Source: Parapedobacter indicus (GTDB taxonomy: Bacteria; Bacteroidota; Bacteroidia; Sphingobacteriales; Sphingobacteriaceae). From it: a stretch of DNA of 64,000 nucleotides. Below the pieces are notes generated by a model. That model was not told the origin of the DNA and searched no databases. It saw only the letters and a list, made by a program, of their open reading frames with translations. How positions within the stretch are numbered: position 1 is the stretch's first letter; every line of letters starts with the position of its first letter. Location of the stretch: NCBI RefSeq assembly GCF_900113765.1, contig NZ_FOQO01000005.1, forward strand, positions 266,762-330,761, in the 5' to 3' direction. The translations under genes were made by a program, and so were the position numbers. Below are positions 4,492 to 9,557 of this stretch, in pieces.

Positions 4492-4499
4492 TACTTTTG
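4492..4499 (+). promoter_or_regulatory. -7 promoter box TACTTTTG for the epimerase/SerB-ACT pair
   Basis: TACTTTTG overlaps the TTG at 4497 that would give the longest epimerase frame, so the GTG at 4527 is the better start. It is divergent from the box at 4432-4439. The -33 element is weak. Confidence 0.4.
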
Positions 4500-4526
4500 A
4501 GGCGTTATATCAACTATTCTAAGACG

Positions 4527-5510
4527 GTGGTTTTAGTAACAGGCGGGACAGGTTTTCTGGGCTCCATTCTTATCAAACAATTGATCGCAGCGGGATTTCA
4601 GGTCCGGGCTACGAGGCGGGAGACGTCTACAATTCCGCAGTTGCTTGACGGACTACCGGGGGTAGATTGGGTTCAAGCAGATGTAAACGACTTCTTTGCC
4701 TTGGCCGATGCATTTGAAGGTGTAACACAGGTATACCATTGTGCGGCGGTAATTTCTTATCATACAGCCGATCGTAAGCGGATGAGTGTGGTGAATGTGG
4801 AAGGCACGGCACAGGTGGTTACCCTTGCACTCGAGCGGGGAGTACGTTTGTTGCATGTCAGTTCCATTGCTGCTGTGGGGGGGGGAAAGAATGGGCGTGA
4901 AATAACGGAAGACGATCTATGGGAATACGATAGCGGTCAATCTGGCTATGCGATTGCCAAATATGAGGCCGAGATGGAGGTATGGCGGGGAGTTGCCGAA
5001 GGGCTGGACGCCGTGATCGTGAATCCGGCATTGATTATCGGTCCATCGGCTCCACTTGAAGGAATCGGAAGCAGCGGGTCTATTTTTGCCCAACTGCATG
5101 ATGGCCTCAACTTTTACACGGCGGGTTCGGTTGGCCTGATCGACGTCGAAGATGTAGCCAGGGCGATGATGTTGTTAATGGAAAACAAAGCAATCAGCGG
5201 ACAGCGGTTTCTGTTGAGTAACGTGAACATGACGTATCAGGAGTTGATGGCACGGTGCAGCGCTTACCTCGGTCGGCCCGCTCCTAAGTTCAAGGCGACG
5301 CGCTTGATGCTGGGAATGGCTTGGCGTGCTGCCAAGGTGCTCTCACTCTTCAGCGGCAAACGGCCGCTTTTGACACGCGAAACCGCCCATGCCGCAAACC
5401 AGCAGATGCGGTTTGCAAATAAGAAAATCCTAGATGCAACGGGCATCGCATTCAAACCGATTGATGAGACGTTGCGCGAAATATGTAGCAGACTTTTAAC
5501 CGTACAGTAA
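4527..5510 (+). CDS. NAD-dependent epimerase/dehydratase (extended SDR)
   Basis: An extended short-chain dehydrogenase with the Rossmann motif VLVTGGTGFLGSILI at the N-terminus, HCAAVISYHT, NVEGTAQV, and the catalytic YxxxK in SGYAIAKYEAE. VNPALIIGP and IDVEDVARAMMLLME are typical of the dihydroflavonol-4-reductase/3-beta-HSD-like branch; the substrate is not predictable. The GTG at 4527 gives the usual MVLVTGG beginning; the alternative is TTG at 4497. The stop is one base before the TTG start of the SerB-ACT gene, so the two are probably co-transcribed and translationally coupled. Confidence 0.85.
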   Translation: MVLVTGGTGFLGSILIKQLIAAGFQVRATRRETSTIPQLLDGLPGVDWVQADVNDFFALADAFEGVTQVYHCAAVISYHTADRKRMSVVNVEGTAQVVTLALERGVRLLHVSSIAAVGGGKNGREITEDDLWEYDSGQSGYAIAKYEAEMEVWRGVAEGLDAVIVNPALIIGPSAPLEGIGSSGSIFAQLHDGLNFYTAGSVGLIDVEDVARAMMLLMENKAISGQRFLLSNVNMTYQELMARCSAYLGRPAPKFKATRLMLGMAWRAAKVLSLFSGKRPLLTRETAHAANQQMRFANKKILDATGIAFKPIDETLREICSRLLTVQ

Positions 5511-5511
5511 A

Positions 5512-6804
5512 TTGGACAATTATTACATTATCGATTTTGACAGTACCTTTACCCAGGTAGAAGCGTTAGACGAATTGGCTCGCATTTCGTTGGCCAATCA
5601 TCCAGCAAAAGAGCTGATTTATGCAGAGATCGACCGGCTGACGAACCTATCCATGAATGGCCAGCTGTCTTTCCGGGAGAGCCTTTCGGCCAGGGTACGG
5701 TTGCTGGAGGCCAATCGGGAACACCTGAAGAAATTAATTAGCATACTCAAGAGGAAGGTTTCTCCATCATTTCTACGCAATCGTGAGTTTTTCAAGAAAC
5801 ACAGCGATAGTGCATTGATTGTATCGGGGGGATTCAAAGAGTTTATCGTGCCTGTAGTGAGTCCCTACCATATCAAGCAGGAGAATGTCTATGCCAATAC
5901 CTTTACGTTTGATGAAGAGGGGAAGATAACCGGATACGATGAAGGCAACCCCTTATCGGAAGAGGGAGGCAAAGTGAAGCTTCTACGGCAGTTGAAGTTG
6001 CCAGGCAAGATTTACGGTATCGGCGATGGCTATTCCGATTTCCAGCTGAAAGAGTCGGGGCTTATTGAGCGTTTCTTTGCGTTCACCGAAAATATTGAGC
6101 GGAAGAGCGTATCGGAGAAAGCCGACCACGTTACGCCCAGTTTCGATGAATTTCTATACGTGAACGACCTTCCACGGGCGATCTCTTATCCTAAGAACCG
6201 CATCCTTTGCTTGATTGTGGGCAGTGTGCCTGAAATTTCGGCCCACATACTCAAGCGAGATGGTTTTTCCATCCGGGTAAAGCAGACGTTTGAGGAAAAA
6301 TACGTCAAAGATGTGGGGATGTTGCTGTTGGGAAAAGACGTGAAGCTGGACGACGAACAGCTGGTGAGGGCAGACAAGCTTAAGACAATAGGCTATTTAG
6401 GAGACAGCAAATATCAGGTAAACCGGGAAATCTGCAACGAGAAGGGGATTGTACTTTTTGACGACAAGAAAGGTAAGAAGCGCAACAACGAATTCATCCC
6501 GCGGCGCATGGCTGACTTTATCAACAAAGGGGATACGTATATGAGTCGTAATTTCCCAAATTTGTTGTTGCCCAAGATCGAAAAAGCACATAGACTGCTT
6601 CATATCCATCGGAATGTGCCCGGCGTAATGGCGCACATCAATCAGGTTTTCGCCGAAAACCAGATCAACATTGTTGCCCAGTTTTTGATGACCAAAGGAG
6701 ATATCGGCTATGCAGTGACGGATGTGGATACCCAGTACGACAAGCGGCTGCTGAAGCAACTCAGACAGATAGAAAACACAATAAAGTTCAGGGTGCTATA
6801 CTAA
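5512..6804 (+). CDS. Phosphoserine phosphatase (HAD) fused to remnant phosphoglycerate dehydrogenase and ACT domain
   Basis: Residues 1-215 are a complete SerB-type HAD phosphatase: D8-F-D10-S-T, S105 in VSGGF, K154, and GDGYSD at 171-176. Residues 225-318 resemble the N-terminal part of SerA-type phosphoglycerate dehydrogenase (AISYPKNRILCLIV, KLKTIGYLGDSKYQVN, NEKGIVLF). Residues 330-430 resemble the SerA C-terminus with its ACT domain (FINKGDTYMSRNFPNLLLP, AHRLLHIHRNVPGVMAHI, TIKFRVLY). The NAD-binding and catalytic core of about 200 residues is missing around residues 316-330. Bacteroidota often carry a full SerB-SerA fusion of about 630 residues, so this looks like an in-frame shrunken form. 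It should dephosphorylate phosphoserine; serine binding at the ACT domain is inferred. Translation starts at TTG. Confidence 0.85.
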   Translation: MDNYYIIDFDSTFTQVEALDELARISLANHPAKELIYAEIDRLTNLSMNGQLSFRESLSARVRLLEANREHLKKLISILKRKVSPSFLRNREFFKKHSDSALIVSGGFKEFIVPVVSPYHIKQENVYANTFTFDEEGKITGYDEGNPLSEEGGKVKLLRQLKLPGKIYGIGDGYSDFQLKESGLIERFFAFTENIERKSVSEKADHVTPSFDEFLYVNDLPRAISYPKNRILCLIVGSVPEISAHILKRDGFSIRVKQTFEEKYVKDVGMLLLGKDVKLDDEQLVRADKLKTIGYLGDSKYQVNREICNEKGIVLFDDKKGKKRNNEFIPRRMADFINKGDTYMSRNFPNLLLPKIEKAHRLLHIHRNVPGVMAHINQVFAENQINIVAQFLMTKGDIGYAVTDVDTQYDKRLLKQLRQIENTIKFRVLY

Positions 6805-7475: not shown

Positions 7476-9557
7476 ATGAAATTTTTAAATCGAGTAGCCA
7501 TTGCGGTGGTCATTCTTTCCTTTGCCTTTGGATGCAAGAAAGACCCCGTGACTCCCCCGGAAGAGCCTCGGGAGCCGGAGGAAGTAATTGGTAATGTCAT
7601 CAGCAACCTGGAAACAGCAGATACCATCAGCGTATTTGTCGACGCATTGAAAGGACTCGAGCTCTCTGCCACAGATGTGGAAGAAGGTATCACCGTGTTT
7701 GCACCGTTGAATGATGACGAAGCGCGAGCACAGCAAGCGCGTATGATGGGCAGCAAAAGGTCTTCCATACAAGCTTTTGGAACCGAAGATCTTACGTCGT
7801 CAGTGTTGAAAGACCATATCGTGAAAGGAGTTATTAAACTTGCGGATTTAACGAACGATCGAATGCTAACCAGCCTAAGCGGAAAAGAACTAAAAGTAAG
7901 CCGTGTTGGGAAGAAGATCTGGATAAACGGGGTTCAAATTGGAAGTGACGAGATCGGAGCGACGGATGATCAGGTCGTCTATACGGTGAAGACCTTGCTT
8001 TCGGGCACCTCCGTTGATGACGAACTACAGACCACTTCACTGGAAGTAGTAGTTTGGGATGCAACGGCTTGGACACCGGAAAAGCCGAAGGGGGTCCGGG
8101 CAGAAAGCGGCACAGTTTGGCTGTATGCCAGTCAGGAAGACTATGCGAACAGCGTGGTGGCGTATGAAGCAGCGATTGACACCGGGAAGGCGATATTTGA
8201 GGATATTAAAGCGGGCACTTACTATGTAGAGGTGGAGTATGGAGATAAGTATAACATCTTTTATGAAGGTGAAGAAGCTCAAGACGGATATTATTTTGGG
8301 ATGGCCGCAGCAGGGATCTTTCAGTCACAAAGCGACGTTGATGGATGGGCTGAGCAGCCGGATGCAGCAGTGGGCAATTTCAAATGGACAGATTCCAATT
8401 CGGATGGTGTGATTAATGCCGGCGACATGGTAAAAATGCCCTACGAGAATGCCGAGATAAAGGATGGAAGGGTTAAAACCGTTGAAATATTTGTCGGATA
8501 TGACAACAACGCTGCACAAAAACCATTGACACTGGAGGAATTTGATGCACAGCTAAATACGGCTCATGACCGAATTGGGGGATGGCAAAAGGAACTAGCG
8601 GTGGCCGATGCGTTGCTGGGAGGGGAGGCAGTTTCAGACACATTAGGTGCGGCGTTGAATGGTCAATTCGGACCGCTGAACAACTTTTCTTTTACACCGG
8701 CAGTCCCAGTAATCAACCAGCTTTGGCAAGGCGGTTATTCGGTTATCCACTCATTGAATGCGATAGAGAGCCGTGCTCCGCAGGCGGCAGAATTGGGAAC
8801 ATTACGGTTATTCAGGGCTTATATCTATATGCAACTGATGCATTATTTTGGAAAGGTCCCCCTGCTTACGGTGGAAACTCAAGGAGCCAGCCTTTCCAAT
8901 TCCGACCCGGACGCGGTTTATAATTTTATTGTTGCAGAGCTTGAACAGGTCAGTGGGCAATTACCTCAACAGGCTGCGGATGGTGGTGTTTCCAAGGGAG
9001 CAGCACAGGCGCTGCTGGCGAAGGCCGCTTTGTTCAAAGGCAATTTCCAGCTTGCAATTACGTTGACGGACCAGATTATCGCTTCGGGAGCTTATGCGTT
9101 GGCGGCCAACACAACCCAGATTTTCAAGCCGAGCGGCAGTGAGGTTATTTGGGATCATTCTGAAACGATGAGGGAAGATATAAAACGGTTCTTCTATAAC
9201 CGCAGTGTGTTTCCCATCATTCGGTATACTGAAGTGATGCTCATGAATGCGGAAGCTAAGGCCGCGAGCGGCAAGCTGACAGAAGCCGGCCAAGTTTATA
9301 ATCAACTGGCTTCTCGGCGCGGAATCCCTCCGATTGGCGAGGCCGTATCTGCTCAAGCATTTGCCGATCAATTGCATACGCTCTGGAGAATTGAAATGCC
9401 AAAAGAGGGAGGCCGATTTGTGAACTTAGTCCGTTGGCATAAGGCTGCCGAAGAGTTGGGCAGCAAGGGATATATGGAAGGTAAAAGCAACGTGTTGCCC
9501 ATTCCCCAAGTGGTTATCGATGCAAACCCGGGAATGCTGCAAAATAGCGGCTATTGA
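7476..9557 (+). CDS. Lipoprotein with fasciclin (FAS1) domain fused to a SusD/RagB domain
   Basis: A lipoprotein signal peptide ends in the lipobox FAFGC, followed by KKD, as in surface-exported Bacteroidota lipoproteins. Residues about 40-175 form a FAS1-like domain (GITVFAPLND, SSVLKDHIVKGVIKLADL, KKIWINGVQIGSDEI, VVYTVKTLL). Residues about 185-350 are a beta-rich linker containing the calcium-loop-like DSNSDGVINAGDMV. Residues about 370-693 are SusD/RagB-like, with LRLFRAYIYMQLMHYFGKVP, GAAQALLAKAALFKGNF, RYTEVMLMNAEAKAASGK, IEMPKEGGRFVNLVRW and the terminal PGMLQNSGY. SusD proteins form the lid of a TonB-dependent SusC transporter; no susC lies nearby. A role in capturing or adhering to a glycan is inferred. 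Confidence 0.85.
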   Translation: MKFLNRVAIAVVILSFAFGCKKDPVTPPEEPREPEEVIGNVISNLETADTISVFVDALKGLELSATDVEEGITVFAPLNDDEARAQQARMMGSKRSSIQAFGTEDLTSSVLKDHIVKGVIKLADLTNDRMLTSLSGKELKVSRVGKKIWINGVQIGSDEIGATDDQVVYTVKTLLSGTSVDDELQTTSLEVVVWDATAWTPEKPKGVRAESGTVWLYASQEDYANSVVAYEAAIDTGKAIFEDIKAGTYYVEVEYGDKYNIFYEGEEAQDGYYFGMAAAGIFQSQSDVDGWAEQPDAAVGNFKWTDSNSDGVINAGDMVKMPYENAEIKDGRVKTVEIFVGYDNNAAQKPLTLEEFDAQLNTAHDRIGGWQKELAVADALLGGEAVSDTLGAALNGQFGPLNNFSFTPAVPVINQLWQGGYSVIHSLNAIESRAPQAAELGTLRLFRAYIYMQLMHYFGKVPLLTVETQGASLSNSDPDAVYNFIVAELEQVSGQLPQQAADGGVSKGAAQALLAKAALFKGNFQLAITLTDQIIASGAYALAANTTQIFKPSGSEVIWDHSETMREDIKRFFYNRSVFPIIRYTEVMLMNAEAKAASGKLTEAGQVYNQLASRRGIPPIGEAVSAQAFADQLHTLWRIEMPKEGGRFVNLVRWHKAAEELGSKGYMEGKSNVLPIPQVVIDANPGMLQNSGY

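Follow-up and report, generated by a model that had tools for sequence, protein, structure and literature searches.

In 2-hydroxyacid dehydrogenases such as phosphoglycerate dehydrogenase (PGDH), the NAD domain sits inside a discontinuous substrate-binding domain. In E. coli SerA, the serine ligands are His344, Asn346 and Asn364, a Gly-Gly hinge between the substrate-binding and ACT domains is implicated in serine inhibition, and ACT-less type III PGDHs are not regulated by serine; these points on E. coli SerA and type III PGDHs, like the roles of R60, R240 and H292 used below, come from the available part of PMC6300728. Among phosphatases, the ACT-bearing mycobacterial SerB2 is inhibited by L-Ser and has its two ACT domains in front (available part of PMC10564941). 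A SerA-SerC fusion is described in oomycetes (available part of PMC2705460). In titles and opening parts of abstracts of the open-licence literature we found neither the SerB-SerA fusion of Bacteroidia nor the short form described here, and the available parts of PMC7311316, PMC5764234, PMC9026213 and PMC2705460 mention neither.

The gene studied here lies in a window of 64,000 nucleotides of Parapedobacter indicus, the window being the whole stretch of DNA that was analysed. It encodes a protein of 430 residues, the short form, with the following features and upstream neighbour:

4497..5510, + strand: SDR/epimerase gene, directly upstream and codirectional (Pfam, neighbourhood comparison)
5512..6804, + strand: whole coding sequence, 430 residues, TTG start, stop included (frame open)
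5512..6156, + strand: HAD-IB / SerB-like phosphatase domain, residues 1–215 (Pfam, NCBIfam, motif residues, structure match)
6190..6465, + strand: SerA substrate-binding domain, first piece, residues 227–318 (profile alignment, model, superposition)
6466..6516, + strand: junction, residues 319–335, site of the absent 196-residue NAD-binding domain (profile alignment)
6496..6558, + strand: SerA substrate-binding domain, second piece, about residues 329–349, within and after helix 325–339 (profile alignment, model, superposition)
6580..6801, + strand: ACT domain, residues 357–430 (Pfam, profile alignment, superposition)
6607..6615, + strand: His366 and Asn368, counterparts of the E. coli SerA serine ligands His344 and Asn346
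6667..6669, + strand: Asn386, counterpart of the E. coli SerA serine ligand Asn364

Eight of nine Parapedobacter sequences share the TTG start; the ninth has ATG. We read the protein as a serine-regulated phosphoserine phosphatase that carries the serine-sensing half of a type II PGDH at its C-terminus and descends from a SerB-SerA fusion, and we give this reading a probability of about 0.6. For architecture and origin, that is, SerB plus a SerA remnant, the case is strong. In Pfam, HAD matched residues 7–179 (37.4 bits) and ACT_AHAS_ss residues 362–425 (57 bits), both above cut-off, and 2-Hacid_dh matched weakly at residues 234–316 (13.9 bits, cut-off 24.6). The NAD-binding domain PF02826 gave no Pfam match in the protein at E values up to 1, and none at 5512–6804 in the whole-genome search. 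The strongest NCBIfam match was PRK11790 phosphoglycerate dehydrogenase, in two stretches (141.4 bits, cut-off 404), so best-hit annotation could misname the short form as a phosphoglycerate dehydrogenase despite the missing catalytic domain. A profile of 47 short forms aligned its positions 225–326 with E. coli SerA residues 4–111 and positions 330–431 with residues 308–410 (1yba); residues of about 112–307 (196 residues, in effect the NAD-binding domain) have no counterpart. The catalytic Arg240 and His292 of type II PGDH are absent along with that domain, and the substrate arginine R60 is not kept. The initial annotation had described an intact HAD phosphatase, a SerA start and end that remain with the ACT domain included, and the loss of about 200 residues with the NAD-binding fold and catalytic residues. 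All of this held on closer analysis, and the junction it placed at 6450–6500 agrees with that found here (about 6463–6517). No position of the junction (residues 319–335) is invariant among 112 distinct short-form sequences.

The fold evidence indicates that an inserted domain was removed. In a full-length SerB-SerA fusion (L054), the Pfam substrate-binding model spans residues 234–545 around an NAD-domain match at 338–513. An AlphaFold2 model of the 430-residue protein (mean pLDDT 86.4, pTM 0.72) shows residues 231–350 as one compact domain (pLDDT 89–96 by block), in which the last helix, 325–339, comes directly after strand 314–317. In a single alignment, residues 227–430 of the model superpose on the substrate-binding and ACT domains of E. 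coli PGDH (between residues 7 and 410) in the G336V mutant structure 2p9e_B (Z 27.1, rmsd 1.7, 203 aligned) and on wild-type 1psd_A (Z 26.5, rmsd 1.7, 203 aligned); taking 1psd, 1yba and 2p9e together, the range is 1.7–1.9 Å. The substrate-binding domain is thus present as a fold, residues 227–349 lying inside the superposition, as well as by a weak sequence match. Compared with E. coli SerA, the short form keeps the serine ligands but lacks the NAD-binding domain, the catalytic residues and the Gly-Gly hinge, and it has a phosphatase in front. The placement of the phosphatase relative to the rest is left unsettled by the model (pTM 0.72; pLDDT 51–83 by block for residues 161–220). A model of a second short form, L159 of a Polaribacter MAG, has pLDDT 86.4 and matches 2p9e_B (Z 27.3, rmsd 1.7 Å, 203 residues) and Brucella 3k5p (Z 27.6, rmsd 1.7); its alignment was made of L159 and Sphingobacteriaceae-clade sequences, so there is some dependence between the two models.

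A comparison with full-length SerB-SerA fusions of relatives had also been proposed, and fusions of 627–636 aa were found in other families of Bacteroidia. A fusion such as L054 (628 aa), made of a HAD phosphatase and a PRK11790-type PGDH, has the same order of parts as the short form and shares descent with it: phosphatase, substrate-binding pieces and ACT domain are related. The NAD-binding domain, R60, R240, E269 and H292 are all present in the fusion, whereas the short form lacks that domain and R60. These four residues (E. coli numbering) are kept in all 65 rows from active families, which stand for 62 genomes, three of them sampled twice. Matches were found in 120 of the 395 genomes of the class. 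Among the matches listed with a phosphatase outside Sphingobacteriaceae and f14 (a small order made up of three sampled genomes), most are SerB-SerA fusions, their open frames about 600–730 residues long; among the matches listed there are also four f12 genomes in which the phosphatase has a frame to itself, a few matches cut by contig ends, and others that are a SerA-type ACT alone. In these four genomes (G091, G246, G273 and G321, genus g76), a SerB-like frame of 233–236 aa lies beside a SerA-ACT frame of 376–414 aa, which is either gene fission or the unfused state. Not counted as rows were L057 (G213, cut by a contig end) and G311 and G128 (split over contigs), and for G092 the downstream 345-aa piece alone was used because the frame is broken upstream. 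In that single-contig f14 genome the short form (L085) is broken into two frames of 345 and 115 aa, perhaps by a sequencing error.

Trees were used to count how often the NAD domain was lost. They included 17 or 13 of the 41 family rows, and those with 13 also included 10 of the 80 named short-form loci. The phosphatase-only tree (76 rows, 215 columns) and the tree of all shared columns each needed three changes between short and long forms. One is the Sphingobacteriaceae clade (support 100/97). The second is f14, which pairs with one long row, the nearest being a full-length row of f47 (95/91). The third is L159, which joins the 627-aa fusion of G167 (100/91); among the matches listed to the phosphatase part in the family of G167 (349 genomes), all frames are of at least 627 aa save a contig-end fragment in G754. 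A single short ancestor was rejected for Sphingobacteriaceae plus f14 (p-AU 0.013 in the phosphatase-only tree and 0.017 in a 71-row tree) and for Sphingobacteriaceae plus L159 (p-AU 1e-6). The evidence that the loss recurred is strong for L159 and good for f14; the branch of f14 is long, which makes its separate position less secure than that of L159. The three cuts almost coincide: in the rows shown, the strand that finishes with G-[IV]-x-x-F is retained, and the sequence picks up again at, or slightly ahead of, the helix that runs into [FY]-[IMV]-N-x-G. The change presumably ran from long to short, because the NAD domain is common to SerA generally and L159 is nested among long forms. The short forms of Chitinophaga (L162, L169) and Niabella (L150, L158, L184) were considered as further excisions, but this was rejected, as they nest inside the Sphingobacteriaceae clade; they do so at two places, which makes transfer the simpler reading, and transfers they probably are. 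The full-length fusions, the trees and the Polaribacter MAG support the original suggestion of an in-frame core loss from a SerB-SerA fusion. That the loss is old, nearly family-wide, removes an inserted domain and recurred was not visible to the initial annotation. It had also considered that the shorter form might be ancestral and unrelated to SerA, which is ruled out by the PGDH superposition and the profile alignment.

Some long fusions have lost catalytic residues without losing the domain. All five f11 fusions (597–609 aa) and the one f42 fusion lack R60, R240 and H292, and the one f25 fusion lacks R60 and R240 and keeps the histidine H292. E269, which we take to be a functional residue of SerA, was dropped as a marker of inactivity because its alignment in the inactive rows shifted between two alignments. 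The f11 rows are sister to the Sphingobacteriaceae clade (99/91 in the phosphatase tree, 94/94 and 92/91 with longer alignments), so the loss of catalysis may precede the cut. Inactive and short rows together need five changes on both trees, and the 71-row tree without L159 gave three changes. A clade of f14 and f42 was not rejected (p-AU 0.131), which means that four changes are possible and that the number of inactivations is uncertain. At even odds, in our judgement, the fusion lost its dehydrogenase four to five times in the sampled Bacteroidia, three of these losses ending in clean removal of the NAD domain and closure of the split substrate-binding domain, with the ACT serine site kept each time, feedback moved from SerA to SerB, and inactive long forms such as those of f11 as likely intermediates. 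Domain gain by insertion is known; the clean removal of an insert three times at about the same place, with the host domain reclosing, would be a natural experiment in domain architecture if true, and a case of an allosteric sensor that outlived its enzyme and came to serve another enzyme of the pathway.

The course of events may be pictured as follows. From a bifunctional SerB-SerA ancestor, a separate ACT-less SerA would have taken over the dehydrogenase step, after which the fused dehydrogenase could lose catalysis; this order of events is our proposal. The NAD-binding domain, an insert in the substrate-binding domain, would then have been cut out, and the substrate-binding domain would have closed into a continuous one. 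In the present protein the ACT domains of two subunits would come together and bind serine where they meet, and the substrate-binding domain would pass the signal to the phosphatase or set the oligomeric state, so that the end product may restrain the last step. The short form may work like mycobacterial SerB2 (ACT-ACT-phosphatase; 3p96, 5jlp), judging by analogy, as both join a phosphoserine phosphatase to ACT domains. SerB2 has its two ACT domains in front, whereas Pfam found in the short form a single C-terminal ACT and no tandem N-terminal ACT of the SerB2 type; here the ACT is derived from SerA and stands behind, with the SerA substrate-binding domain between.

The serine site itself is conserved. 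His366, Asn368 and Asn386 are present in all 120 short rows of the family clade (two collections mixed, some species twice; 112 distinct sequences), and the counterparts are kept in 2/2 f14, 1/1 L159, 5/5 f11, 1/1 f25 and 1/1 f42 rows and in 45/45 active fusions. Over the 112 distinct sequences, 16 of the 74 ACT positions are invariant, the three serine ligands among them, and the chance that three named columns all fall among the invariant ones is 0.009. The serine sensor suggested by the initial annotation stands as far as the conserved ligand residues and the PGDH-like model carry it, and on these grounds serine regulation of the 430-residue protein is plausible. An unlikely alternative is that the substrate-binding and ACT remnant merely joins two phosphatase subunits and that serine sensing has been lost. 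E. coli PGDH has a dimer interface made by ACT domains, and in some PGDHs, such as those of mammals, these domains no longer sense (PMC6300728, available part). The substrate-binding remnant is also poorly conserved: of the 90 positions in its first piece 11 are invariant, versus 86 of 215 in the phosphatase. But the three ligands are found among so few invariant ACT positions, and the ligand residues altered in mammals according to the same source are kept here. The L159 protein and the G167 fusion are 88% identical in the phosphatase, 44% in the substrate-binding piece and 74% in ACT, and two active fusions of the same family as G167, G407 and G304, compared with G167 show 69–76%, 77–79% and 74–77%, respectively. 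Thus, the remnant changed fast after the cut and ACT somewhat, and since ACT of L159 diverged more than its phosphatase, the constraint on ACT seems partly relaxed there. The Gly-Gly hinge is absent from the 430-residue protein and from the 12 full-length fusions listed, so the E. coli route of transmission cannot simply be assumed for a serine-regulated phosphatase.

The separate serA predicted earlier was found: serC lies at C11:107160–108215, and directly after it, at C11:108297–109241, comes a serA of 315 residues with both dehydrogenase domains and no ACT. The stand-alone type III SerA of the genome (L072:5298–6242), with complete substrate-binding and NAD domains and no ACT, can supply the dehydrogenase step lost by the fusion. 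At E 0.001 no second SerA-type ACT was found in the genome, and the one present is on the phosphatase; with SerA lacking ACT, feedback on the last step would be the simplest reading. The short form could instead bind the stand-alone SerA (or SerC) and lend it serine control, like the regulatory subunit of acetohydroxyacid synthase (AHAS), and both the missing ACT of SerA and the best match of the ACT domain here, an AHAS small-subunit-like Pfam model, would fit this. We consider it improbable, as the short-form gene is on contig C19 and serC and serA are on C11, and the interfaces of E. coli PGDH are NAD-NAD and ACT-ACT (PMC6300728, available part), neither of which is available between a short form without NAD domain and a SerA without ACT; furthermore, none of the five Chitinophaga and Niabella genomes with the short form has a close relative of the stand-alone SerA (best identity 34–39%, 5/5 genomes). 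Each of them also has a SerA-like frame of 414–419 aa, at 34–37% identity to the stand-alone SerA.

Among the 80 genomes compared, a relative of the stand-alone serA occurs in 17/17 Sphingobacteriaceae (three of them without the short form), in 3/3 f14 (one partial), in 4/5 of the fusion-bearing f11 genomes and in f25 and f42; the L159 genome has one as well. At E 1e-40, none was found in the 21 genomes (21/21) of f2, f15, f49 and f68, families in which every fusion is catalytically intact, and six active families (f4, f10, f12, f46, f47, f54) have both an intact fusion and a stand-alone serA. By lineage, it is present in 6/6 lineages with an inactive or excised dehydrogenase (f11, where 4/5 genomes have it, is scored as present) versus 6/10 active families (p ~0.12), so a link between stand-alone SerA and the loss is consistent with the data but not significant. 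A redundant SerA thus seems to allow the loss but not to compel it. G401 of f11 runs against the link, since it has an inactive fusion and no close stand-alone SerA (best identity 33%); either the step is done there by another enzyme, or serine must be supplied to the strain, or the gene is hidden by a gap in the assembly.

For a serine-regulated phosphoserine phosphatase, the identity of the HAD domain also matters. D8, D10, T12, S105, K154, D172 and D176, to which we assign the HAD motif I–IV roles (DxDST, S/T, K, GDxxxD), are kept in 120/120 family-clade rows, as are E17, M48, F54 and R61, which we take to be the substrate-contacting positions of SerB; none of the 13 phosphatase positions checked varies in these rows. 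The HAD-IB model TIGR01488 matched with 65.5 bits (cut-off 45). The SerB equivalog TIGR00338 gave 66.9 bits, below its cut-off of 144.15, and the full-length fusion L054 is also below it (73.4), so by sequence we class the protein as SerB-like and not as an equivalog. It is very improbable that the domain dephosphorylates another small phosphate instead of phosphoserine. The equivalog score would allow it, and in four other bacteria, genes initially annotated as phosphoserine phosphatases are proposed to be histidinol-phosphatases (PMC5764234, available part). Against it stand the invariant motif and presumed contact residues in the 120 rows, the match of the fold to human PSP (6hyy_B; Z 21.0, rmsd 2.6, 203 aligned), and the fusion of the same domain to a complete SerA in relatives. 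Nor does the genome offer a better SerB candidate: the search found no other full match and two further partial ones in frames of 857–858 aa, all three being below cut-off.

An assembly or sequencing deletion, raised by the initial annotation, or a decaying pseudogene, is already refuted, because the short form was matched in 191 of 201 Sphingobacteriaceae genomes, the frame is intact in 80/80 named loci, and nonsynonymous rates are far below synonymous ones in pairs where both are measurable (dS is saturated in many pairs, and ratios are given only where defined). Each of the 191 genomes has one match; among those listed, all run from residue 1–5 to 430 in an open frame of at least 430 aa, and the 80 named loci encode 427–433 aa from the trimmed start. 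The 10 genomes without a match are small, at 1.3–2.4 Mb.

Downstream of the gene, at 7476–9557, lies a frame of 693 aa that by eye resembles a fasciclin-type domain with a SusD-like part behind it; the 80 named SerB loci gave no match to it. Relatives of the upstream SDR/epimerase gene were found in 34 of 41 family loci and in none of the other-family loci L050–L064 and L200–L221 (flanks up to 1.5 kb). Of the 77 named loci with more than 1.2 kb upstream, 22 lack this neighbour, 14 of them in Mucilaginibacter; in the other 55 it is upstream and codirectional, within about 140 bases in 50.
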